Shown here in pieces: positions 3,870 to 28,585 of a stretch of 64,000 nt of DNA. The stretch spans positions 124,001 through 188,000 of the forward strand of contig NZ_QYRN01000006.1 of assembly GCF_003583935.1 (NCBI RefSeq), written 5' to 3'. Origin of the DNA: Aureimonas flava. Its GTDB lineage: Bacteria; Pseudomonadota; Alphaproteobacteria; Rhizobiales; Rhizobiaceae. The notes under the pieces were generated by a model that was not told the origin of the DNA, made no database searches, and was given only the letters and a program-made list of their open reading frames with translations. Numbering within the stretch: position 1 is the first letter of the stretch; the number at the start of each line of letters is the position of its first letter. A program made the position numbers and the translations under genes.

Positions 3870-5918
3870 TCAGCGCACCACGGTGAGTGCGGCGCTGCGG
3901 CAGGGATGGCGCAGGAGATCGAGCAGTTCGTCGTCGACATGAAGCAGCGACAGCGAGACGCCGGCCATGTCGAGCGAGGTGTAGTAGGGGCCGACCCAGG
4001 CGCCGACCACCTCGACGCGCCGGGCCCGCAGGCGCTGGGCGAGCCGCCGGTGGACCACGTAGAGCTCCATCGCCGGCGTCCCGCCGAGCGAGTTCACCAG
4101 CGCCGCCACCCGGTCGCCCGGCTGGAGGCGCATCTCGGAGAACAGGCGGTCGAGCAGGAGGTCGGTCACCGCGTCGGCGCTGGCCAGAGGCTCGCGGGCG
4201 ACGCCCGGCTCGCCGTGGACGCCGACGCCGATCTCCATGTCGGCGGGCCCGAGCGCGAAGCTCGGCCGTCGCGTGTCGGGCATCGTGCCGGGCTCCAGCG
4301 CGACGCCCATCGAGAAGGTGCGCGCCGCCGCGCGCCGCGTCACGGCCTCGCAATCCTCGAGCGACATCATCCGGTCGGCGGCCGCGCCCGCGATCTTGAA
4401 GACGAACACGTTGCCGGCGACGCCGCGCCGCGACCCCACCGCGTCGGCGGGCGCCGAGGCGATGTCGTCCACGGTGACCACGGAGCGGGTCGCGATGCCC
4501 CGTTCGGCCAGTTCCTCGGCCGCCATCTCGAAGTTGAGGACGTCGCCGGAGAAGTTGCCGTGGACGTAGAGCACGCCGGCGCCGCCGTCGGCCGCCCGGG
4601 TGCAGGCGAGGATCGGCGCCGGCGGCGGGGCGGCGAAGAGGTTGCCGATCGCCGCCGCGTCCGCGAGGCCCGGCCCGACATAGCCCCAGAAGGCGGGCTC
4701 GTGGCCCGAGCCGCCGCCGATCACGAGGCCGACCTTGCCCGGCCGCGCCCCCGCCACCGAGCGGATCGCGCGCGGCGCGCCGGCGACCGGGGTGATCAGG
4801 CCGGCATGGGCGGCGACCGCGCCTTCCAGGACCTCGTCCACGGCGGCGTGCGGGTCGTTCAGGAGCTTCTTGGTGTGGGTCCGTCCGACGGGCGCGGTGC
4901 TCGGCGCGGCGGCGGGGGCGCGGCGCGCCGGCTCCGTCCAGCCGTCGGCCGTGAGCACGCCCCAGCCGGTCTGGGTGTCGGTGACGAGGACGCTGGCGAA
5001 CCCCCCGCGCAGCGCCCCGAGGATCGCCGGCACCTTGTCCGGACCGCCCGCCACCGCGATGCGCTGCGGCACGGCGCGCAGGGCGGCCAGCTCGATGCCG
5101 ATCGTGCGCCCGTCCAGCGGCCCCGGCACCGGCGCGCCCGATGCCGAGATGAAGCGACCGGCGATGCTGCCGATGGCCACCTGCTCGTAGTCGTGGCGCT
5201 CGGGCCCTTCCAGGAAGCCGCTCGTGTGGATCGTGCTTTCGGGCCGCAGCGAGGAGATGCCGAAGAGGATGCGCCCGGCCTCTCCCAGCACCGCCATCTG
5301 CTCAGCCAGCACGGGCTCGGCGAGGAGCATGTCGCGCATGGCCGCGCTCGAGACGATCGCCGGCGCCGACAGGGGGATGCAGCGTCCGCCCAGCGCCTCG
5401 GCGAGGCGCGAGGCGCAGGCCTCCGGCGTCCACGGGATCTTGGCCGTGGTGCCGCCCGTCGCCTGGACGACGCGCAGGTCGCTGAGCGGCGCGACGCGCA
5501 GCGCCTCGGCCAGCGCCAGCACCGTGCGCCCCCAGGTGACGGCCAGCGTGTCGCCCGAGCGAGCGAAGCGGGCGAGCGCCTGCGCGCCGGCCGCGCCGAG
5601 CCGGGCGGTCAGCGATCGGTCGCCGCCGCTGGCCGGCACCACCAGGCAGTCCTCCAGGTCGAAGCGTGCGCGCAGCGCCTCGGCGAGCGTCAGCGCGCGG
5701 AACTGGCGGGGCTCGATCTCGATCGCCACGAGGCCGCGCGTGCGCGCCTCCGCGAGATACGCGTTCACCGAAGCGCGCGAGACGCCCATCTCGGCGGCGA
5801 TGTCGCCCTGGGTCATGCCCTCCTCGTGGTAGAGCCAGGAAGCCCAGAGCAGCGCGTCGTCGCCGAAGCGCAGCGGGATCGTCGGCTCGCCGACCGAGCG
5901 GGGGGAGGGGCGTGCCAT
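3870..5918 (-). CDS. SorC-family regulator fused to dihydroxyacetone kinase subunit DhaK
   Basis: This is a 682-residue fusion. Residues 1 to about 335 are a SorC-type regulator: a helix-turn-helix (MTQGDIAAEMGVSRASVNAY, about residues 35-54) and then the phosphosugar-binding domain. From about residue 345 it is a complete DhaK: GGGSGHEPAFWGY, HGNFSGD with the active-site Asp, and VGVHGEPG with the His that covalently holds the ketose. The same polypeptide can therefore bind the ketose substrate and, probably, sense the phosphorylated product on DNA. It overlaps dhaL by ATGA and faces the sugar ABC importer operon, its likely target. The architecture is known as a bifunctional sugar-binding regulator/DhaK. 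Substrate is inferred to be dihydroxyacetone or a tetrulose. Confidence 0.9.
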   Translation of the reverse strand: MARPSPRSVGEPTIPLRFGDDALLWASWLYHEEGMTQGDIAAEMGVSRASVNAYLAEARTRGLVAIEIEPRQFRALTLAEALRARFDLEDCLVVPASGGDRSLTARLGAAGAQALARFARSGDTLAVTWGRTVLALAEALRVAPLSDLRVVQATGGTTAKIPWTPEACASRLAEALGGRCIPLSAPAIVSSAAMRDMLLAEPVLAEQMAVLGEAGRILFGISSLRPESTIHTSGFLEGPERHDYEQVAIGSIAGRFISASGAPVPGPLDGRTIGIELAALRAVPQRIAVAGGPDKVPAILGALRGGFASVLVTDTQTGWGVLTADGWTEPARRAPAAAPSTAPVGRTHTKKLLNDPHAAVDEVLEGAVAAHAGLITPVAGAPRAIRSVAGARPGKVGLVIGGGSGHEPAFWGYVGPGLADAAAIGNLFAAPPPAPILACTRAADGGAGVLYVHGNFSGDVLNFEMAAEELAERGIATRSVVTVDDIASAPADAVGSRRGVAGNVFVFKIAGAAADRMMSLEDCEAVTRRAAARTFSMGVALEPGTMPDTRRPSFALGPADMEIGVGVHGEPGVAREPLASADAVTDLLLDRLFSEMRLQPGDRVAALVNSLGGTPAMELYVVHRRLAQRLRARRVEVVGAWVGPYYTSLDMAGVSLSLLHVDDELLDLLRHPCRSAALTVVR

Positions 5919-6586
5919 CAGCGGTCCGTCCGGCGGCGGGCGAGCACCGCCTCGTAGCCCTCGCGCAACGCGTCGACCACCACGGCGGCGGACGCGGCAC
6001 CGGGATCGACATGGCCGAGGCTGCGGGTGCCGAGCCGCGCCGCCCGGCCCTTGGAGGCGATCATGGTGCGCGTCGCCTCCCGCCCCTCGGCGGCGGCCCG
6101 CGCGGCCGCCCGCAGCGCCTCGCCGACGCCCGCGCCGTCGGCCTCCGCCGCCGACGCGGCGCGGATCGCCGGGCCGTACGCGTCCATCATGGTCTTGTCG
6201 CCCGGAACGGCCCGGCCGCGCCGGGCGATCCCCTCGCCAAGGCCCGCGAGGAGAACCAGGAGATCGGCGTCGGCGAGCGCGGCACGGCCGGCGAGGCGGC
6301 GACCGGCCTCGGCGAAGCCCCCGGCATAGAGCGGCCCGGCGGTGGCCCCCACGGCGTTGAGGAAGGATCGGGCCGCGATCGGCAGGAGCTCGGCCGCCCC
6401 AGCCCCGCGCCGCGCGGCCTCGTGCGCGTCTCGCACCACGGCCGCGAACCCTTCCGACATGGTGCGGCCGTGGTCCGCGTCGCCGATCGCCCCGTCGAGC
6501 TCTGCCAGGTGTTCGCGCGCCTCGTCGATCCGTGCGGAGACGATGCGCAGGATCTCGACGAACTGCTCGGCGGCGATGCGGGTCAT
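5918..6586 (-). CDS. dhaL: Dihydroxyacetone kinase subunit DhaL
   Basis: This is a 222-residue DhaL, the nucleotide-binding subunit that phosphorylates the ketose held by DhaK. It has the DhaL signature LDGAIGDADHGRTMSEG with the Mg-binding aspartates, the glycine-rich NAVGATAGPLYAGGF segment and the GDKTMMDAYGP block. The start at 6586 gives the usual DhaL N-terminus. An in-frame ATG at 6658 would add 24 residues and run across the promoter/operator region, so it was rejected. The stop overlaps the start of the SorC-DhaK fusion. No PTS-type phosphodonor DhaM is encoded nearby, so either ATP is used directly or DhaM is elsewhere. Confidence 0.92.
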   Translation of the reverse strand: MTRIAAEQFVEILRIVSARIDEAREHLAELDGAIGDADHGRTMSEGFAAVVRDAHEAARRGAGAAELLPIAARSFLNAVGATAGPLYAGGFAEAGRRLAGRAALADADLLVLLAGLGEGIARRGRAVPGDKTMMDAYGPAIRAASAAEADGAGVGEALRAAARAAAEGREATRTMIASKGRAARLGTRSLGHVDPGAASAAVVVDALREGYEAVLARRRTDR

Positions 6587-6651
6587 GGCCGCATAGTCGG
6601 GGCGCGGCGGCGATTCGGCAAGCGAGGCATCGTTCCCCCGCGACAACCGGA

Positions 6652-6680
6652 TTGACATTTGTCGTCGCTGAATTGAACAT
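6652..6680 (+). promoter_or_regulatory. Sigma-70-type promoter of the ABC importer operon
   Basis: A perfect -35 TTGACA (6652-6657), a 17-nt spacer and a -10 GAACAT (6675-6680) lie about 70 nt upstream of the ATP-binding protein gene. Both boxes are overlapped by dyads that look like repressor sites. Confidence 0.55.
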
Positions 6681-6687
6681 TGTCGAA
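6654..6687. promoter_or_regulatory. Two candidate operator dyads for the SorC-DhaK regulator
   Basis: Two related dyads are spaced about two helical turns apart, centre to centre. The first is GACA-TT-TGTC (6654-6663), a perfect 4-bp-arm palindrome on the -35 box. The second is TTGAACATTGTCGAA (6673-6687), an imperfect 15-bp palindrome on the -10 box. They share the core ACATTNGTCG. They lie between the divergent dhaL-dhaK and ABC importer operons, the natural site for autoregulation by the fused SorC protein. Confidence 0.5.
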
Positions 6688-6751
6688 AAGGAGCTGCCGA
6701 TCGGGGGAATCGGCGGTGGAGCCCTGCGAGGGGGCTCCGGGAGGACGATGG

Positions 6752-8233
6752 ATGACGGTTCCGCTTCTCAAGGTGGAAGGGCTGCGCAAGTCCTTCGGCG
6801 GCGTCGCCGCGCTGCGCGACGGCCGCTTCGAGCTGGAGGCCGGTTCGGTGCACGCCCTGTGCGGCGGCAACGGCGCGGGCAAGTCCACCTTCCTCACCAT
6901 CGTCATGGGCATTCAGAAGCGCGACGGCGGCACGATCTGGCGGAACGGCCGGCCGGTGGAGTTCTCCAGCCCCGCGGACGCCCTGAGGCAGGGCATCGCC
7001 ATCATCGAGCAGGAGCTGAGCCCGGTCCCGCACATGAGCGTGGCCGAGAACATCTATCTCGGGCGCGAGCCTTCGGGCCGCTTCGGCGGCATCGACTTCC
7101 GCAGCATGAACCGCGAGGCGCAGTCGCTCCTGGACGGGCTGGGCTTCGCGATCGACGCGCGGCAGGCCATGGCGACGCTGTCGGTGGCCCAGATGCAGCT
7201 CGTCGAGATCGCCAAGGCGCTCAGCCACGACGCCGAGGTCATCTTCATGGACGAGCCGACCTCGGCCATCGGCGAGCGCGAGGCGCAGCACCTGTTCGCG
7301 GCCATCGAGCGGCTCAAGGCGCAGGGGCGCGGCATCGTCTACGTCTCGCACCGCCTGTCCGAGATCTTCCAGATCGCCGACAGCTACACCGTGTTCCGCG
7401 ACGGGGCCTACGTGTCGAGCGGCCGGCTGGCCGAGACCGACCGACCGGGGCTGATCCGCATGATCGTCGGGCGCGAGCTCGGCGAGGAATACATCAAGAC
7501 CAACACGCCTTCGGAGACGGTCGGCCTCTCGGTGGCGGGGCTCGCCAGCCCCGGCCGCATCGCCGACATCTCGTTCGACGTGCGCAAGGGCGAGATCTTC
7601 GGCATCTACGGACTGATGGGCTCCGGCCGCACGGAGATCTTCGACGCCCTGTTCGGCCTCGACCCCAAGGCGCGGGGGCGCATCGCGCTGGACGGGCAGC
7701 CGGTCGACGTCCGCCGGCCGGCCGACGCGATGGCCGAAGGGATCGCCTTCGTCACCGAGGACCGCAAGCAGACCGGGCTCAACCTCCACGATTCGGTGCG
7801 CGGCAACATCGCCCTCGCCAGCCTGCCCGAGATGAGCCCCGCCTTCGCCATGCGCCGGCGCGAGGAGGCCACGGCCAGCCGCGCCATGATCGACCGCTTC
7901 GCCATCAAGGCGGCGCGCGACACGATGCCGGTGTCGGGCCTTTCGGGCGGCAACCAGCAGAAGGTGGTGCTCGGCAAGTGGTTCCTGCGCAAGCCGCGCG
8001 TCCTGCTCCTGGACGAGCCCACCCGCGGCGTCGACGTCGGCGCCAAGCGCGAGATCTACCGCATCATCTGCGAGTTCGCCGCCGCCGGCGGAACGGTGGC
8101 GATGATCTCCTCCGAGATCGACGAGGTGCTGGGACTTTCCGACCGCGTCATGGTGATGCGGGGCGGGCGCTCGGCCGGCATCCTGGCGCGCGGCGAGGCC
8201 AGCGCGCAGTCGCTCGTCCACCTTTCCACCTGA
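6752..8233 (+). CDS. Sugar ABC importer, duplicated ATP-binding protein (RbsA/XylG type)
   Basis: This 493-residue protein has two ABC domains and powers import of a monosaccharide or polyol. Domain 1 has Walker A GGNGAGKST, a weak signature LSVAQMQ and Walker B VIFMDEPTS. Domain 2 has a degenerate P-loop (GLMGSGRTE), a perfect signature LSGGNQQK and Walker B VLLLDEPTRG, the usual asymmetry of CUT2 importers. The ATG at 6752 follows CGGGAGGAC. It is the first gene of a plus-strand operon (ATPase, permease, binding protein, dehydrogenase, DhaK, DhaL), so the cargo is probably a small polyol or ketose fed to the DAK kinases. Confidence 0.9.
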   Translation: MTVPLLKVEGLRKSFGGVAALRDGRFELEAGSVHALCGGNGAGKSTFLTIVMGIQKRDGGTIWRNGRPVEFSSPADALRQGIAIIEQELSPVPHMSVAENIYLGREPSGRFGGIDFRSMNREAQSLLDGLGFAIDARQAMATLSVAQMQLVEIAKALSHDAEVIFMDEPTSAIGEREAQHLFAAIERLKAQGRGIVYVSHRLSEIFQIADSYTVFRDGAYVSSGRLAETDRPGLIRMIVGRELGEEYIKTNTPSETVGLSVAGLASPGRIADISFDVRKGEIFGIYGLMGSGRTEIFDALFGLDPKARGRIALDGQPVDVRRPADAMAEGIAFVTEDRKQTGLNLHDSVRGNIALASLPEMSPAFAMRRREEATASRAMIDRFAIKAARDTMPVSGLSGGNQQKVVLGKWFLRKPRVLLLDEPTRGVDVGAKREIYRIICEFAAAGGTVAMISSEIDEVLGLSDRVMVMRGGRSAGILARGEASAQSLVHLST

Positions 8234-8284
8234 ACCCGTCCGCCGGGGTCCGAGCCCGCGCAGTCCACTGAGGGAGCCGTTCCC

Positions 8285-9289
8285 GTGACCGACATCAACG
8301 CAAAAGCCGCCGATCCGAGCGCGGGCGCCGAACGCCGGCGCCTCCTGATCCAGGAATACGGCATCTTCATTGCCTTCCTGATCCTGGTCGGGGTGCTGGC
8401 CGTCTCCAGCCCCTACTTCCTGACGGCCGGCAACATCTCCAACGTCCTGCTCCAGACCTCGATCAACGGCATCCTCGCCATCGGCATGACCTTCGTCATC
8501 CTGACGCGCGGCATCGACCTGTCGGTCGGCTCGGTGGTGGCGCTGGCGGGCATCGTCAGCGCGAGCTTCGTCACCACGACCGCCAATGCCAGCGTGGCGG
8601 GCGGCCCCTATCCGATGGTGCTGGCGCTCGCGGTCGGCATCGCGGTGGGCGTGGCGAGCGGCGCCATCGTCGGGTTCATCGTCTCGCGGTTCAACGTGCC
8701 GGCCTTCGTGGCGACCCTCGGCATGCTCTCGGCCGCGCGCGGCATGACGCTGATCTACGGCGGCGGCCGCCCGGTGCCCGGCCTGATCCCGGAGTTCCGC
8801 TGGATCGGCACCGGCAACATCCTGGGCGTGCCCCTGCCGGTGGTGATCCTGGCCGCGGTCTTCGCCGTGTCCTGGTGGCTGCTCTCGTCCACCCGCTTCG
8901 GCCGCTACATCTACGCCGTGGGCGGCAACCCGCACGCCGCCAAGACGTCCGGCATCAACGTCGCCCGCATCCGCTTCCTGGTCTACGTCATCTCGGGCGC
9001 GCTCGCGGGCCTCGCCGGCATGATCCTGTCGGCGCGCACCGGCTCGGCGCTGCCCCAGGCGGGCGTCGCCTACGAGCTCGACGCGATCGCCGCCGTGGTG
9101 ATCGGCGGCACGTCGCTCTCCGGGGGCGTCGGCCGCGTCACCGGAACGCTGATCGGCGCGCTGATCATCGGCGTGATGAACAACGGCCTCGATCTCATGG
9201 GCATCCAGTCCTACTACCAGCAGATCCTCAAGGGCGCCCTGATCGTGGGCGCGGTGATGCTGGACCAGAAGCGCAGCCACGCCGGCTGA
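8285..9289 (+). CDS. Sugar ABC importer permease (RbsC family)
   Basis: This 334-residue hydrophobic protein has the CUT2 permease pattern: several transmembrane helices, GIDLSVGSVVALAGI near residue 78 and the cytoplasmic-loop region GGNPHAAKTSGINV. It starts with GTG, 51 bp after the ATPase gene, preceded by AGGGAG. It should homodimerise and pair with the double-ATPase upstream and the periplasmic binding protein downstream. The cargo is unknown and is inferred from the operon to be a three- or four-carbon polyol or ketose. Confidence 0.9.
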   Translation: MTDINAKAADPSAGAERRRLLIQEYGIFIAFLILVGVLAVSSPYFLTAGNISNVLLQTSINGILAIGMTFVILTRGIDLSVGSVVALAGIVSASFVTTTANASVAGGPYPMVLALAVGIAVGVASGAIVGFIVSRFNVPAFVATLGMLSAARGMTLIYGGGRPVPGLIPEFRWIGTGNILGVPLPVVILAAVFAVSWWLLSSTRFGRYIYAVGGNPHAAKTSGINVARIRFLVYVISGALAGLAGMILSARTGSALPQAGVAYELDAIAAVVIGGTSLSGGVGRVTGTLIGALIIGVMNNGLDLMGIQSYYQQILKGALIVGAVMLDQKRSHAG

Positions 9290-9383
9290 CCGCCGCCAAT
9301 TCCGCCCGGCCGCTCGCGCCGGGCCGAACGGGGCGACGCCATTCCGGCGCGCTCCGACAGGTTCCAAACGGGAGGAGACTTCG

Positions 9384-10364
9384 ATGAAGACCCTATTGCT
9401 CGCCCTCGGGCTCGCCACGGCCCTTTCCGCGCCCGCGATGGCGCAGGAGAAGCTGAAGATCGGCGCGACCGTCTACGGCCTCAACGCCGAATTCATGCAG
9501 ATCTGGACCGCGGCGCTGCAGAAGCACCCGGCCGTGCAGAACGGCGAGGTCGAGGTGACCGTGTTCGACGGCCGCTACGACGCGCTGGTCCAGCAGGAGC
9601 AGTTCAACACGATGATCACGCAGCAGTACGACGCGATCATCTTCGTGCCGATGGACATCGAGGCGGGCGCGGCGCCCGTGCAGGCCGCGGTCGACGCCGG
9701 CATCCCGGTGGTCGGCTCCAACGCCCGCGTCAACTCCGATCTCCTGACCTCCTACGTCGGCTCCAACGACGTCGAGGCGGGCGAGCTGGAGGCCAAGGCT
9801 GTGCTCGACAAGATGGGCTGCAAGGGCAACCTCGTGATCATCGAGGGCCCGATCGGCCAGAGCGGCCAGATCCAGCGCCTCGAGGGCAACGAGAAGGCGC
9901 TCGCCGCCTGCCCCGACGTCAAGGTGCTGGAGCAGCAGACCGGCAACTGGTCGCGCGCCGAGGCGCAGACCCTCATGGAGAACTGGCTGACCTCGCATCC
10001 GGGCCAGATCAACGGCGTGATCGGCCAGAACGACGAGATGGCGCTCGGCGCGATCGAGGCGATCAAGGCCGCCGGCCTCGATGTCGGCGACTTCGCCATC
10101 GCCGGCATCGACGGCGTGACCGACGCGATCAACGCCGTGAAGGCCGGCGAGATGGCCTCGATCCTCCAGGATGCCAACGCGCAGGCCCAAGGGGCGCTCG
10201 ACATCGCCATCAAGGCGGTCAAGGCCGACTACGAGCCGCAGTCGCCGATCTGGCAGCAGTATCCGTCGATGGGCTGGGAAGACGGCAAGGCCAAGACCTA
10301 TCTCGTGCCCTGGACGCCGGTGACCACGGACAACGCCGACGAGCTCCTGAAGTCGCGCCAGTAG
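9384..10364 (+). CDS. Periplasmic sugar-binding protein (RbsB-like, CUT2)
   Basis: This 326-residue exported protein starts MKTLLLALGLATALSAPAMA with predicted cleavage before QE. The mature part is a periplasmic-binding-protein type 1 fold: KIGATVYGLNAEFMQ, a DAIIFVPMD core, IPVVGSNARVN and IGQNDEMALGAIEAIKAAGL, close to ribose/galactose-type binding proteins. It gives the importer its specificity. GGGAGGAG lies 8 nt before the start. A strong GC hairpin lies directly after the stop, which may protect this part of the mRNA and raise binding-protein level over the enzymes downstream. Confidence 0.9.
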   Translation: MKTLLLALGLATALSAPAMAQEKLKIGATVYGLNAEFMQIWTAALQKHPAVQNGEVEVTVFDGRYDALVQQEQFNTMITQQYDAIIFVPMDIEAGAAPVQAAVDAGIPVVGSNARVNSDLLTSYVGSNDVEAGELEAKAVLDKMGCKGNLVIIEGPIGQSGQIQRLEGNEKALAACPDVKVLEQQTGNWSRAEAQTLMENWLTSHPGQINGVIGQNDEMALGAIEAIKAAGLDVGDFAIAGIDGVTDAINAVKAGEMASILQDANAQAQGALDIAIKAVKADYEPQSPIWQQYPSMGWEDGKAKTYLVPWTPVTTDNADELLKSRQ

Positions 10365-11249: not shown

Positions 11250-12248
11250 ATGCAGCGCTTCATCAACGACCCCGACCAGGTGGTGGACGACACCGTCCGC
11301 GGCTTCGTGAAGGCCCATCGCGACCTCGTGCGCCTGTCGGAGACGAACCGGCGCGTGGTGGTGGCGGCCGGCGCGCCGAGAAGCGGGCGCGTGGGCGTCG
11401 TCACCGGCGGCGGGTCGGGCCACGAGCCGGCCTTCATCGGCTATGCCGGGGCGGGGCTGGTGGACGCGGTCGCCGTGGGCGAGCTGTTCTCCTCGCCAAC
11501 GGCCAAGAGCTTTCACGACGCGATCCGGGAGGCGAGCGGCGGGGCCGGCGTCGTCTGTCTCTACGGCAACTACGCCGGCGACAACATGAACGTGAAGATG
11601 GCGCAGAAGCTGGCCGCCAAGGACGGGATCGAGGTCGCCGTGGTGGTTGCCAACGACGACGTGTGCTCGGCGCCGGCCGAGGAGCGGGCCAAGCGCCGCG
11701 GCGTGGCGGGCGAGATCTTCATGTGGAAGATCGGCGGCGCCAGGGCGGCCGAAGGCGCGAGCCTCGAGGACGTGCGCGCCACCGCGCAGAAGGCCATTGA
11801 CAACTGCCGCTCGATCGGCGTCGGCCTCGGCCCCTGCACGCTGCCCGCCGTCGGCCATCCGAACTTCCAGATTGAGCCGGGCACGATGGAGGTCGGCATC
11901 GGCCACCATGGGGAGCCCGGCATCCGCGTCGAGCCGCTGAAGCCGGCCGCCGAGGTGGCGCGCGAGATGGCGCGGATCGTGCTGGACGACCACGCGCTGG
12001 CCGCCGGCACCGAGGTCGCCGTCCTGGTTTCCGGCCTCGGCGCGACGCCGCTCAACGAGCTCTACATCCTCAACGACATGATCGCGTCGGAGATCGAGGA
12101 CCGCGGCCTGTCCGTGTACCGGACCTATGTCGGCAACTACTTCACCTCGCTGGAGATGGTGGGTGCGACGCTGACGATCCTGGCGCTGGACGACGAGCTC
12201 AAGCGTCTTCTGGACGCCGAGGCGCGCGCGCCCGGTTTCCGGGCCTGA
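11250..12248 (+). CDS. dhaK: Dihydroxyacetone/tetrulose kinase subunit DhaK (second copy)
   Basis: This 332-residue DhaK starts MQRFINDPDQVVDDTV and has GGGSGHEPAFIGYAG, YGNYAGDNMNV and the covalent-substrate His in GIGHHGEPG. The residue before that His is another His, where the SorC-fused copy has Val. A difference next to the substrate may mean a different ketose. It follows the dehydrogenase and precedes its own DhaL by 15 bp, so the importer operon is self-sufficient: import, oxidation, phosphorylation. Paralogues of this kind act on erythruloses in other bacteria, so both dihydroxyacetone and tetruloses are plausible. Confidence 0.92.
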   Translation: MQRFINDPDQVVDDTVRGFVKAHRDLVRLSETNRRVVVAAGAPRSGRVGVVTGGGSGHEPAFIGYAGAGLVDAVAVGELFSSPTAKSFHDAIREASGGAGVVCLYGNYAGDNMNVKMAQKLAAKDGIEVAVVVANDDVCSAPAEERAKRRGVAGEIFMWKIGGARAAEGASLEDVRATAQKAIDNCRSIGVGLGPCTLPAVGHPNFQIEPGTMEVGIGHHGEPGIRVEPLKPAAEVAREMARIVLDDHALAAGTEVAVLVSGLGATPLNELYILNDMIASEIEDRGLSVYRTYVGNYFTSLEMVGATLTILALDDELKRLLDAEARAPGFRA

Positions 12249-12263
12249 GAGGAGCACCCGAGC

Positions 12264-12905
12264 ATGCAGAGCTTTCCCAATGCCGGCGGCGGCGCCATCG
12301 TCGAGGCGATGGCCGCCCGGATCATCGAGAACAAGGCCTATCTGTCCGAGATCGACGGGCGGATCGGCGACGGCGACCACGGCGTGAACATGGCCAAGGG
12401 GTTCGGCATGGCGGCCGAGCGCCTGGCCGGTCGCGACGCCTCGCTCGCCGAGGCGCTGGCGCTGCTCGGCGAGGTGCTGATGGGCGAGATCGGCGGCTCC
12501 ATGGGGCCGCTCTACGGCATGACCTTCACCGAGTTCGCCGAAGGCATCGAGGGGCAGGAGCGGATCGACGCTGCCCTGTTCTCGGCCATGCTCCGCAAGG
12601 GGCTCGACGGGGTCCGCTCGATCGGCTCGGCCGAGGTGGGCGACAAGACGCTGCTCGACACGTTCGTGCCGGCCGTGGAGGCCTTCGACGCCGCGACCGC
12701 GGACGGGCGATCCTTCGCCGAGGCGCTGGACGCGCTGCGCGCTGCCGCCGAACGGGGGCGCGATTCCACGATCGACCTCGTGGCGAGGATCGGCCGCGCC
12801 AGCCGGCTCGGCGAGCGCTCGCGCGGCGTGCTGGACGCCGGCGCCACCTCCTGCGCGATGATCCTCGACACGCTCGCGGAAGGGGCGAAGGCGCGCCTGA
12901 GCTGA
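12264..12905 (+). CDS. dhaL: Dihydroxyacetone/tetrulose kinase subunit DhaL (second copy)
   Basis: This 213-residue DhaL has IDGRIGDGDHGVNMAKG, with the Mg-ADP/ATP-binding aspartates, GGSMGPLYGMTF and VGDKTLLDTFVPA. It is the ATP-binding partner of the DhaK directly upstream. GAGAGGAGCACCCGAGC precedes the ATG. It closes the operon: a rho-independent-like terminator starts 30 nt after its stop. Compared with the minus-strand DhaL, the metal site reads GDGDHG instead of GDADHG. Confidence 0.92.
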   Translation: MQSFPNAGGGAIVEAMAARIIENKAYLSEIDGRIGDGDHGVNMAKGFGMAAERLAGRDASLAEALALLGEVLMGEIGGSMGPLYGMTFTEFAEGIEGQERIDAALFSAMLRKGLDGVRSIGSAEVGDKTLLDTFVPAVEAFDAATADGRSFAEALDALRAAAERGRDSTIDLVARIGRASRLGERSRGVLDAGATSCAMILDTLAEGAKARLS

Positions 12906-13012: not shown

Positions 13013-13181
13013 AAAAAAAACGCCCTGCCGGGGGAGGACCGGCAGGGCGTCATGGGTAAAGTCCGCGTGGGAGGAGGATCGCGGACTTCGATCCGCTGCG
13101 GCCGTTGGGAGGAGGTTGGCCGCCGCGAAACTCTGGAGTGGCTGGCCGGCGTCTCGTAGACGCTTCGTCCGGTGCTCCGAT
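13013..13181 (-). ncRNA. CcsR/cuckoo-like small RNA with repeated CCUCCUCCC loops
   Basis: Read on the minus strand, four hairpins follow one another. The first is GCGTCT-ACG-AGACGC (13163-13149). The second is GCGGCC/GGCCGC with loop AACCTCCTCCCAAC (13123-13098). The third is GTCCGCG/CGCGGAC with loop ATCCTCCTCCCA (13086-13061). The last is a perfect intrinsic terminator: an 11-bp stem with loop TCCTCCC (13049-13021) followed by eight U (13020-13013). Loops presenting CCUCCUCCC, an anti-Shine-Dalgarno sequence, define the alphaproteobacterial CcsR or 'cuckoo' stress-induced RNAs. The 5' end is a guess from a TATGTT box at 13193-13188. No -35 was found and no DUF1127 gene, the usual upstream partner in Rhodobacter, is present. 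Confidence 0.78.
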
Positions 13182-13375
13182 GGTTGAAACATAGACCCGT
13201 CCGCCCGATTGCTGTAGTGCAAAAAACGCATGGCTGCATTGCGGTAGAGGTCTGCGACGACCGCGTTCGGCGGCATCGGCCGGGAAGGCGCATGGGCGGC
13301 TATTCATCGATCTGTCATACGGGATGACATTCGACCGCCGTGCCCCTAGCGTGGCGCCCACGATGCGGGGGTGAC

Positions 13376-14041
13376 ATGAACCATCTGGACTTTCCCAAGA
13401 GCTTCGCCGGGCTGCTGGCGGGGCTCCTCCTTTTCGTGCTCGCTTGTGCGCTCGCGACCGTGCCGTTTCTCGGCCTCGACCTCGCTTCCGGCGAGAACGG
13501 CCCGCTGGAATGGACGCAGGAGGCGATGCTGATGGCGGCCGTCGTGTTCTCGGGTGCCGCCGCGCTCGGACTGCGGGGGCCGGAGCGCTTGGCCGCCTTC
13601 CTGGCGACGCTGCTCTATGCGGTTTTCCTCCTGCGCGAGCTCGAGTTGCCGGTGACGGGCCCGATCACCCGCTATCTCGCTTCCGGCATGTTCCGCTGGC
13701 ACGAGACGCTGGTGCTGGCGGTCCTGGTCCTGCCCTATGCGGCCCTTCGGTTCCGCTTCTGGCCGGCCATCCTGTCCTATGGCCTCAGCCTGCGCGGCTG
13801 GCCCTTCGCGCTGGCGGCACTCCTCGTGGGAACGGGCGCCGTCTTCGACGGCGTGCCGAGCCTCGGCGGCGTCGCCCATCTCAGCACCTTCCTGGAGGAG
13901 ACGGCGGAGCTTCTCGGCTACACCGTCCTGGCGGTGGCGGCCGGTTGGGTGCTGGCGCGCGCGCGCGCCGAGGACGGGGCGGCGCAGGGACCGGTGGCCG
14001 GCGGCGCCGCGCCGCTCGGATGTCCTTCGCGAGGCGCCTGA
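13376..14041 (+). CDS. Hypothetical polytopic membrane protein
   Basis: This 221-residue protein has about six hydrophobic segments (roughly residues 12-35, 48-64, 68-86, 106-124, 138-160 and 176-194) joined by short loops. The motif WTQEAMLMAAVVFSG lies after the first segment, and conserved-looking acidic residues sit in FLEETAELLGY near the end. No family is recognised with confidence. The charged Glu pairs inside membrane segments suggest more than a simple anchor. The ATG at 13376 is preceded by GCGGGGGTGAC. The gene stands alone between the sRNA locus and a convergent gamma-glutamyltransferase gene. Confidence 0.75.
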   Translation: MNHLDFPKSFAGLLAGLLLFVLACALATVPFLGLDLASGENGPLEWTQEAMLMAAVVFSGAAALGLRGPERLAAFLATLLYAVFLLRELELPVTGPITRYLASGMFRWHETLVLAVLVLPYAALRFRFWPAILSYGLSLRGWPFALAALLVGTGAVFDGVPSLGGVAHLSTFLEETAELLGYTVLAVAAGWVLARARAEDGAAQGPVAGGAAPLGCPSRGA

Positions 14042-14063: not shown

Positions 14064-15809
14064 TCAGTAGCCGATCGCCGCGCCCGCGCCGGCGCGGCTG
14101 TCGATCGCCCCGAAGAAGCGTTCCGGCCGGTCGGGGTCGCGCTCCGCAAGGCTCGGACCGCCGATCAGGATGCCGGCGGCCTGGCCCCAGACGGGCCAGT
14201 CGGGATCCTCGGCGACCTTGTGCCCCTTGGCTGCCAGAAGGGCGATCGTGTCGGGCGACAGGGCGTGCGGCTCGATCGTGATGCGGTCGGGCTGCCACTG
14301 ATGGTGGATGCGCGGCGCGTCGATCGCCTCCTGGATGTCCATCCCGTGCTCCACGACGTTGAGGATGGCCTCCAGCGTGATGGTGATGATGCGCGAGCCG
14401 CCGGGGCTGCCGATCACCATCAGCGGCTCGCCGTCGCGCGACACGACGGTCGGGCTCATGGAGGACAGAGGCGACTTGCCCGGCTCGATGGCGTTGGCCG
14501 CGCCCTGCACCAGCCCGTAGAGGTTCGGCACGCCCGGCTTCTGGGTGAAGTCGTCCATTTCGTTGTTGAGAAGGACGCCCGTGCCCGGCGCCACCACGCG
14601 CGCCCCGAAGGAGCCGTTCAGCGTGTAGGTCACGGCCACCGCGTTGCCGTCCCGGTCCACGATCGAATAGTGCGTCGTCTCGTGGCTTTCCCCCATGCCG
14701 GCGGGCTTGAGGTCGGCCGAGACGCCGGCGCGGTTCGGGTCGATCCGGGCGCGGATCTCGGCGGCGTGCTCCTCCGACAGGAGCATCTCGACCGGATTGT
14801 CCACGAAGTCCGGGTCGCCCAGCGCCGAGTTGCGGTCGACATAGGCGTGGCGCATGGCCTCGGCCATCAGGTGCACCGTGGCGGCGGACCCGAAGCCGGT
14901 ATAGGCGATCGGATAGGCCTTCAGGATGTTCAGGATCTCGCAGATGATCACCCCGCCCGAACTCGGCGGCGGCGACGACACGATCTCGTAGCCCTTGTAG
15001 TCGCAGCGGATCGGCTCCAGCTCGCGCACCTTGTAGCCCTCGAAGTCCGACGCCTCGAGGATGCCGCCGTTGGCGCGGCTCGCCTCGACGATCGCCTGCG
15101 CGGCCAGACCCCGGTAGAAGCCGTCCGGTCCGCGCTCGGACACGGCGCGCAGCACCCCGGCAAGGTCCGCCTGCACCAGCCGCTCGCCCGCCCGGAACGG
15201 GACGCCGCCGGGTTTCAGGAAGATCGCGGCGGCCGCCGGGTCCTCGGCGAGGTCGGCGTTGGCGTCCGCGAAGCTCGCGACGTCGCCCTGCGTGAGCGCG
15301 AAGCCCTCGGAGGCGAGCCGGATCGCCGGTGCGATCAGCGCCGCGCGCTCGCGCGTGCCGTAGTGCTCGCGCGCGTGCTCGAAGCCGGCCACCGAGCCCG
15401 GCACGCCGACCGCGAGATAGCCGTCCGTGGACAGGCCCTCCACCGGATCGCCGTTCGCGTCGAGATACATGTCGCGGGTCGCCCGGCCCGGCGCGCGCTC
15501 GCGGAAGTCGATGAAGGTGGATCGTCCGTCCCGCAGGCGGATGGTCATGAAGCCGCCGCCGCCGAGATTGCCGGCGGTCGGATAGGTGACGGCCAGCGCG
15601 TAGCCCACCGCCACCGCCGCATCCACGGCGTTGCCGCCGCCCTTCAGCACCTCGACGCCGACCTCGCTGGCCAGCCGCTGGGCGGTGACGACCATGCCGT
15701 TCTCGCCCGCCACGGGCGCTGGAGAGGCCGCGAGCGCGGCCGCCGTCTGCAGGACGCAGAGCGTCAGGACGCCGGCGCGGCCGGCCCTCGAAAAGCGTTG
15801 CGCGGACAT
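14064..15809 (-). CDS. ggt: Gamma-glutamyltransferase, periplasmic
   Basis: This 581-residue N-terminal-nucleophile hydrolase precursor transfers or hydrolyses the gamma-glutamyl group of glutathione and related peptides in the periplasm. A signal peptide covers about the first 28 residues (ending TAAALAASPAP). The large-subunit motif GNLGGGGFM and the self-cleavage site ESHETTHYSIVD, whose first Thr becomes the catalytic nucleophile, are intact. SPGGSRIITITLEAILN of the small subunit follows. Length is normal for the family. It is followed on the same strand (upstream in coordinates) by an M23 peptidase gene 98 bp away, possibly co-transcribed. Confidence 0.93.
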   Translation of the reverse strand: MSAQRFSRAGRAGVLTLCVLQTAAALAASPAPVAGENGMVVTAQRLASEVGVEVLKGGGNAVDAAVAVGYALAVTYPTAGNLGGGGFMTIRLRDGRSTFIDFRERAPGRATRDMYLDANGDPVEGLSTDGYLAVGVPGSVAGFEHAREHYGTRERAALIAPAIRLASEGFALTQGDVASFADANADLAEDPAAAAIFLKPGGVPFRAGERLVQADLAGVLRAVSERGPDGFYRGLAAQAIVEASRANGGILEASDFEGYKVRELEPIRCDYKGYEIVSSPPPSSGGVIICEILNILKAYPIAYTGFGSAATVHLMAEAMRHAYVDRNSALGDPDFVDNPVEMLLSEEHAAEIRARIDPNRAGVSADLKPAGMGESHETTHYSIVDRDGNAVAVTYTLNGSFGARVVAPGTGVLLNNEMDDFTQKPGVPNLYGLVQGAANAIEPGKSPLSSMSPTVVSRDGEPLMVIGSPGGSRIITITLEAILNVVEHGMDIQEAIDAPRIHHQWQPDRITIEPHALSPDTIALLAAKGHKVAEDPDWPVWGQAAGILIGGPSLAERDPDRPERFFGAIDSRAGAGAAIGY

Positions 15810-26872: not shown

Positions 26873-28585
26873 GTGTCCACTTCGATCTCTCGTCCCGCCT
26901 ACGCCGCCATGTACGGGCCGACCACCGGGGACCGCGTGCGGCTGGCCGACACCGATCTCCTGATCGAGGTGGAACGGGATCTGACCACCTACGGCGAGGA
27001 GGTCAAGTTCGGGGGCGGCAAGGTGATCCGCGACGGCTTGGGCCAGTCGCAGCGCTCGCGCGCCGAAGGGGCGGTCGACACGGTGATCACCAACGCGCTG
27101 ATCCTCGACCATTCGGGGATCTACAAGGCCGACGTCGGCCTGCGGGGCGGGCGCATCGCGGCGATCGGCAAGGCGGGCAACCCGGACACGCAGCCGGACG
27201 TCACCATCGTGGTCGGCCCGGGCACGGAGGCGATCGCCGGCGAGGGCAAGATCCTCACCGCCGGCGGCATCGACAGCCACATCCACTTCATCTGCCCGCA
27301 GCAGATCGACGAGGCGCTGTATTCCGGCGTCACCACCATGATCGGCGGCGGCACCGGCCCCGCCCACGGCACGCTCGCCACCACCTGCACGCCCGGCCCC
27401 TGGCACCTGGCCCGCATGATCCAGTCGCTCGACGCCTTTCCGATGAACTTCGCGCTGTCGGGCAAGGGCAACGCCTCCCAGCCGCAGGCGCTGGTGGAGA
27501 TGGTCAAGGCGGGTGCCGCCGCGCTCAAGCTGCACGAGGACTGGGGCACCACGCCCGCCGCCATCGACTGCTGCCTCTCGGTGGCCGACGACCACGACGT
27601 GCAGGTGATGATCCACACCGACACGCTGAACGAATCCGGCTTCGTGGAGAACACGGTGGACGCCTTCCGGGGGCGCACCATCCACGCCTTCCACACCGAG
27701 GGCGCGGGCGGCGGCCACGCGCCCGACATCATCCGCGTCTGCGGCCTGCCCAACGTCCTGCCGGGGTCCACCAACCCGACCCGGCCCTACACGGTGAACA
27801 CGCTGGAGGAGCATCTCGACATGCTCATGGTGTGCCACCATCTCGACGCCTCGATCCCCGAGGACATCGCCTTCGCCGAATCGCGCATCCGCAAGGAGAC
27901 GATCGCTGCGGAGGACATCCTCCACGACATCGGCGCCTTCTCCATCATCGCCTCCGACAGCCAGGCGATGGGCCGGGTCGGCGAGGTGGTGATCCGCACC
28001 TGGCAGACCGCCGACAAGATGAAGCGGCAGCGCGGCGCGTTGCCGGGCGAAACCGGCGACAACGACAACCTGCGCGCCCGACGCTACGTGGCGAAATACA
28101 CGATCAACCCGGCCATCGCGCATGGCCTGTCGCGGGAGATCGGCTCGGTGGAGGTCGGCAAGCGCGCCGATCTCGTTCTCTGGGATCCGGCCTTCTTCGG
28201 CGTGAAGCCGGCCATGGTGCTGCTCGGCGGCACGATCGCGGCCGCCCCGATGGGCGATCCCAACGCCTCGATCCCGACGCCGCAGCCGATGCACTACCGG
28301 CCAATGTTCGGTGCCTTCGGCAAGGCCGTGGGCGCCAGCGGCGTGACCTTCGTGTCGGGCGCGGCGATGGCCGACGGGCTGCGCGAGAAGCTCGGCTGCG
28401 AGAAGACGTTCCTGGCGGTGGAGAACACCCGGTCGGGCATCTCCAAGGCCTCCATGATCCTCAACGACCGGACGCCGCACATCGAGGTGAATCCGGAAAC
28501 CTACGAGGTGCGCGCCGACGGCGAGCTTCTCACCTGCGAGCCCGCCAAGGTCCTTCCGATGGCGCAGCGGTACTTCCTGTTCTAG
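26873..28585 (+). CDS. ureC: Urease alpha (catalytic) subunit
   Basis: This 570-residue amidohydrolase is the nickel-containing catalytic subunit. All active-site residues are present: His136 and His138 (DSHIHF), carbamylated Lys219 (ALKLHEDWG), the His pair in IHTDTLNE and [12 protein letters not shown], the flap Cys321 in VCHHLD and Asp362 (SDSQAMGR). It starts with GTG after GGAGGAG. Length matches the family. ureE follows only after a DUF29 gene and a lysozyme-inhibitor gene. Confidence 0.98.

Follow-up and report, generated by a model that had tools for sequence, protein, structure and literature searches.

Excerpts of two papers (PMC10746234, PMC7143759) describe the αr14 sRNAs, represented by NfeR1, as three-hairpin RNAs with variable stems, an ultraconserved CCUCCUCCC and activation by LsrB. 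According to the same excerpts, they pair with the translation start region of ntrB, and free-standing αr14 genes are known, NfeR1 being one. The predicted targets of NfeR1 are mostly ABC transport genes in the passages available of PMC10746234. The same loop design was described in 2011 (PMC3927594, in part), and, in the relevant passages of PMC10253847, short DUF1127 proteins often go together with a CcsR-like sRNA, as at the CIN1 locus. This class of RNA is thus already known and its link with DUF1127 is likewise in print, since the excerpted parts of these four papers describe them. The instructive part of the present case is the evolutionary setting of such an RNA among the relatives of its host.

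Identity of the sRNA

The window, i.e. the whole 64,000-nucleotide stretch of Aureimonas flava DNA analysed here, was searched in full with Rfam. It contains a minus-strand match to αr14 (RF02344) at 13133-13016 that spans the full model length and scores 88.5 bits, for a gathering score of 58.8 (E = 1.1e-14). The sRNA is a member of αr14, the NfeR1 family, a class of anti-Shine-Dalgarno sRNAs. The earlier note had called it a CcsR/'cuckoo'-type sRNA; the design with anti-Shine-Dalgarno loops holds, but the family is αr14 rather than the CcsR1 of Rfam. In the covariance-model search with the CcsR family that the note had proposed, CcsR1 (RF02791) reached 28.2 bits for a gathering score of 65.3. 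CcsR1, αr7 and other Rfam families were ruled out for the stretch 13013-13181, as their scores are below the gathering scores. Furthermore, the window copy lacks the co-transcription behind a DUF1127 gene that characterizes CcsR RNAs. No DUF1127 match was found at its locus at E 0.001, nor at E 0.01 on the sRNA strand, and the description of the sRNA as free-standing was thus correct. Read as a coding sequence, the ORF at 13050-13361 on the minus strand has no Pfam match. Taken as a whole, the best explanation is probably that the window encodes a free-standing αr14 sRNA about 170 nt long. The features of the sRNA and its neighbours are as follows.

13016..13133, minus: αr14 sRNA body with three hairpins (Rfam RF02344, 88.5 bits)
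13094..13127, minus: hairpin 1, loop CCTCCTCCC at 13115-13107, one unpaired base on each side (folding)
13058..13089, minus: hairpin 2, loop CCTCCTCCC at 13077-13069 (folding)
13013..13051, minus: hairpin 3/intrinsic terminator, stem 13051-13019, loop TCCTCCC at 13038-13032, T-run 13020-13013
11250..12248, plus: DhaK-like DAK1-domain gene (Pfam PF02733), start codon set by eye
12264..12905, plus: DhaL-like DAK2-domain gene (Pfam PF02734), convergent neighbour
13376..14041, plus: divergent neighbour of 221 aa, without a Pfam match at E 0.001 (13370-14041 searched)
14064..15785, minus: gamma-glutamyltranspeptidase (ggt) gene (Pfam PF01019), used for synteny and for a tree

Several observations concern other parts of the window or its gene content. 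The 221-aa protein has matches in nine of 101 sampled family genomes. The long minus-strand ORF at 5918-9418 has a second DAK2 domain at its end (residues 977-1152), so that the region has two DhaL-like genes on opposite strands. A match to the Rfam family 5_ureB_sRNA (27027-27314, minus strand, 115.6 bits) is antisense to a urease-alpha-like ORF, named by eye, at 26873-28585 on the plus strand; conservation of that protein-coding sequence may explain the match.

Structure and covariation

Folding places the two CCTCCTCCC loops on the minus strand where the earlier note had seen them, and the stems that it gave are the inner parts of the predicted hairpins 13127-13094 and 13089-13058. The terminator with loop TCCTCCC followed by eight T is likewise found, as hairpin 13051-13019, and so is the additional hairpin upstream, at 13163-13149, which folds within the predicted transcript. 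Among the five relatives with a stand-alone copy (see below), G076 keeps an equivalent small hairpin here that differs by the exchange of one pair, and the other four fold less regularly. The two full CCUCCUCCC loops are unpaired and the third has only UCCUCCC, in keeping with the three-hairpin organization of αr14.

Enrichment of the motif in the window was rejected as evidence: CCTCCTCCC occurs three times in 64 kb for 1.36 expected, an unremarkable count that 13 of 100 shuffles reach. It is the arrangement of the hairpins, not the motif count, that exceeds chance, because the folding z-score of the region is -4.83 (none of 200 shuffles being as good) and the αr14 match has the E value given above.

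We tested covariation on 36 copies from the genus, aligned with MAFFT without structure, with the structure of the window copy as the reference. These are 36 of the 40 genus matches above the cut-off (81 matches in all); L038, a near-twin of L037, and three matches without a locus were left out. Paired cells represent 84.5% of the total, versus 77.7% in shuffles, which leave the relatedness among copies in place, and 47.5% or less in slid controls. Cells changed on both sides number 62; shuffles give 22.9 and slid controls no more than 28, and none of 500 shuffles reaches either observed value. Changes on both sides affect five of nine pairs in hairpin 1, eight of ten in hairpin 2 and 17 of 32 overall. 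Pairs 102-130, 103-129 and 104-128 of helix 3 fail in 23 of the 36 rows because the stem of the relatives is one base shorter and the alignment does not adjust to it. The outermost pair fails in 19 rows for helix 2 and in 17 for helix 3. The loop cores are near-invariant, with loop 2 shortened in some copies. The alignment across relatives that the note had called for thus gives stems that covary around nearly fixed loop cores, i.e. the variable but paired stems and conserved loops of αr14.

Promoter and leader

Upstream of the hairpins, the following elements were delineated.

13134..13182, minus: predicted 5' leader, within which the fourth hairpin lies at 13163-13149 (start placed from the -10 box; folding)
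13188..13193, minus: predicted -10 box TATGTT (six aligned genomes share TAYRTT here)
13228..13240, minus: VtlR/LsrB-like box A-N3-CA-N3-ATGC, reverse complement of GCAT-N3-TG-N3-T
13210..13243, minus: conserved upstream block, near-invariant in the six genomes with a stand-alone copy here

The box corresponds to the VtlR box consensus GCAT-N3-TG-N3-T reported in the excerpted part of PMC7486931. Its loose 13-base form occurs four times in 64 kb. The distance between box and -10 is 34 nt in the window, as in many DUF1127-αr14 units, and 24 of the 27 box/-10 pairs lying within 28-40 nt of each other are exactly 34 nt apart, in DUF1127-linked and stand-alone copies alike. This shared spacing could help in finding further genes controlled by the same regulator. 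A 10-base version of the box is present upstream of 32 of 60 loci and absent from 28, including the contig-9 partner copy of the window genome; a matching -10 is missing in six of the 32. Over 61 loci, the 10-base box is found 34 times in 29.9 kb upstream versus four times in 149 kb elsewhere, a density to be read with the facts that the pattern was picked after viewing the sequences and that the scanned loci are related. By eye, the window promoter has a weak -35 and no exact copy of the TGCA-N6-GCAT motif or of the CTTAGAC -35 given in the passages available of PMC10746234. The box suggests that a LysR-type regulator of the LsrB/VtlR kind might activate the sRNA. A search of this genome for AbcR (αr15, RF02345) gave no match, and the controls gave none either.

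The window copy could also be silent or decaying at an unexpressed locus. According to an excerpt of PMC7143759, northern blots reliably detect only one of the six NfeR1-type copies of S. meliloti. Nevertheless, silence of the window copy is very unlikely, as across the six genomes the leader diverges and yet the box, the place of the -10 and the sRNA body are kept.

Copies and distribution

The genome carries three αr14 copies. In addition to that of the window, there is one on contig 9 and one on contig 11, both with a DUF1127 (PF06568) match that ends about 40 nt upstream. Matches above the αr14 cut-off were found in all 21 genus genomes and in 56 of 61 sampled family genomes, the window's own genome being counted in both cases, and in 60 of 61 at E 0.001. 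The commonest state is a DUF1127 match ending at most 120 nt upstream, which holds for 34 of the 61 αr14 loci scanned, among which are one near-twin and one mis-anchored locus.

Other arrangements were also noted. Tandem αr14 runs within about 500 nt comprise four copies in G027 contig 45 and three each in G037 contig 1 and G042 contig 1. Loci L005, L006, L008, L009, L010, L011, L013, L016 and L020 have αr14 without an upstream DUF1127 match in the locus; for these nine, at least one DUF1127 match is listed 290-1470 nt downstream of the sRNA start.

The locus in Aureimonas relatives

A stand-alone copy adjoins the same divergent gene and ggt in five other genomes of the genus (G076, G074, G068, G078 and G071), the named forms being Aureimonas sp. 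AU22, SK2, Leaf324, A. phyllosphaerae and a MAG. In four of the five, dhaL is on the other side; the flank analysed in G076 gave no dhaL match. At the same locus, defined by the divergent gene and ggt, Aureimonas sp. ME7 has the box, the -10, an open DUF1127 frame and then the sRNA, and no dhaL match was found there. The comparison covers the 18 genus genomes with a close ggt, the three without one being left out. αr14 is above the cut-off at the locus in seven of them. The DUF1127 ORF is present in one of the seven (ME7) and missing in the window and the five others.

In a ggt protein tree, the seven locus-bearing genomes form one clade (97/94), within which the six without the ORF form an inner clade (100/99) with ME7 outside it; this tree was built from untrimmed stop-to-stop frames (695 of 989 columns), its root is weak and lies on chosen rows, and a long-branch warning concerns the outgroup rows. 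As for the direction of the ORF change, there is no outgroup at the locus, 11 of the 18 genomes lacking αr14 there. The comparison suggests that the window locus goes back to a DUF1127-αr14 unit from which the protein gene has disappeared, and as the DUF1127-linked state is so common, a single loss of the ORF is the simplest reading. We also looked for a DUF1127 remnant in the leader and rejected it: a likeness by eye to the 3' end of a DUF1127 gene is not upheld in the aligned relatives.

Alternatively, the stand-alone form might be the older one here, with ME7 having acquired the DUF1127 gene through recombination involving a different DUF1127-αr14 locus. The occurrence of the ORF in only one of the seven genomes would fit such a gain, as would the likeness by eye between the two DUF1127 proteins of ME7 and the exchange of sequence that seems to take place between copies at different loci in some genomes. 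We nevertheless find this scenario unlikely, as it runs against the prevalence of the DUF1127-linked arrangement and as the start of the window leader resembles the 5' UTR of the DUF1127-linked L034 at 20 of 23 bases (by eye, in the best-looking row).

Sequence exchange between copies

Each of the six genomes with a stand-alone copy has a second αr14 copy behind a DUF1127 gene. The window copy and that of contig 9 are 95% identical over 121 nt. Identities between stand-alone and linked bodies, approximate because 3' ends were cut unevenly (the copy tree used fixed ends), are 100% in G074, 99.1 in G068, 94.8 in G078, 90.8 in G000 (the window genome), 89.7 in G071 and 85.0 in G076. The mean within-genome identity is 93.2, versus 87.4 among stand-alone bodies, 92.3 among linked bodies and 88.4 between stand-alone and linked bodies of other genomes. 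In a permutation test that still contains species relatedness, three of the 720 genome pairings, counting the actual one, are at or above the observed total. In the copy tree, the two bodies of G074 are identical, the copies of the window genome pair (80/83), the stand-alone copies of G071 and G078 group by locus (99/98) and that of G076 lies away from the linked copy; a single branch of the tree is starred. One clade of all stand-alone copies is rejected (AU p 0.022), and one clade of all linked copies is not rejected (AU p 0.062).

With moderate confidence, we attribute this pattern to gene conversion between copies, at least for G074 and the window genome, where the likeness is clearest; the body of the window sRNA would thus have exchanged sequence with a DUF1127-linked copy. 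The within-genome likeness might instead reflect common selection or repeated duplication, a possibility that we regard as real though somewhat doubtful. The grouping by locus in G071 and G078, the absence of excess likeness in G076 and the species relatedness left in the permutation test all speak for it, as do the few informative sites, because the bodies are about 110 nt long with constrained loops and terminator. On the other hand, the changes shared in G074 and G000 fall in stems that are free to vary, and the flanks stay specific to each locus, with stand-alone promoters aligning across genomes and DUF1127 genes likewise. So few pairings reaching the observed total also argue for conversion. 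A literature search on gene conversion and sRNAs, which covered titles, abstract starts and passages, returned no title on these sRNAs.

Putting conversion together with loss, we tentatively propose, as a history with a fair share of doubt, that one Aureimonas lineage lost the DUF1127 cistron and kept promoter and sRNA, and that conversion with the distant linked copy took place repeatedly. As repeated conversion makes both RNAs alike, the cell would hold nearly one RNA sequence under two promoters.

Proposed action and candidate target

The promoter with its VtlR/LsrB-like box and -10, the leader, the two CCUCCUCCC hairpins and the terminator with a shortened loop would together yield an sRNA of about 170 nt. 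By analogy with NfeR1, its loops may pair with the Shine-Dalgarno sites of several mRNAs and block their translation, the neighbouring sugar-binding-protein mRNA being one likely target.

9370..9377, plus: candidate target site, the GGGAGGAG Shine-Dalgarno of gene 9384-10364, which encodes a periplasmic sugar-binding protein (predicted duplex)

The predicted loop duplex at 9370 has an energy of -16.6 kcal/mol (-19.4 for a perfect control), a value reached by 0.175% of 4000 random 36-mers. It is the strongest among the seven window genes tried, dhaK and a dehydrogenase gene giving weak pairing. GGGAGGAG is found five times in 64 kb, always on the plus strand, and two of these are the complement of the sRNA itself. 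At the ribosome site of this gene in three relatives, GGGAGGAG is kept in two and the third has GGGAGGAA. The modelled pairing makes the gene at 9384 a plausible target. A genome scan for GGGAGGAGG-N3-9-ATG gave nine sites versus one in a reversed control; as the frames that open at some of these sites are short (15 to 110 codons), we claim no target list.

Comparison with known systems

Anti-Shine-Dalgarno sRNAs could hit many messages, and the way in which their copies come under separate control therefore matters. A clade with and without DUF1127 at one locus also offers a natural test of whether production or use of the RNA depends on the protein.

The AbcR sRNAs (αr15) have anti-Shine-Dalgarno motifs as the window sRNA does, and AbcR and VrsA of Agrobacterium are VtlR-activated, according to excerpts of PMC7143759 and PMC7486931; they belong to RNA families other than αr14. 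The cuckoo RNA family and its CIN1 locus, compared here through descriptions given in parts of other papers, share the fixed loop motif, the free stems and the DUF1127-linked sister copies. CcsR1-4 of Rhodobacter sphaeroides (RF02791) have CCUCCUCCC loops as well, and this genome likewise has DUF1127-linked sister copies; unlike them, the window locus has no DUF1127 gene and encodes a single sRNA that ends in a terminator of its own, where CcsR1-4 form a cluster of four. The likeness to NfeR1 (Smr14C2) of Sinorhizobium meliloti (RF02344), as described in the passages available, includes three hairpins with anti-Shine-Dalgarno loops, variable stems and a free-standing gene, and the VtlR/LsrB-like box of the window may correspond to its LsrB-type promoter motif. 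In contrast to NfeR1, the window sRNA has a predicted leader of about 50 nt before hairpin 1 and a shorter third loop, TCCTCCC, and in a sister strain a DUF1127 gene is present at this locus.
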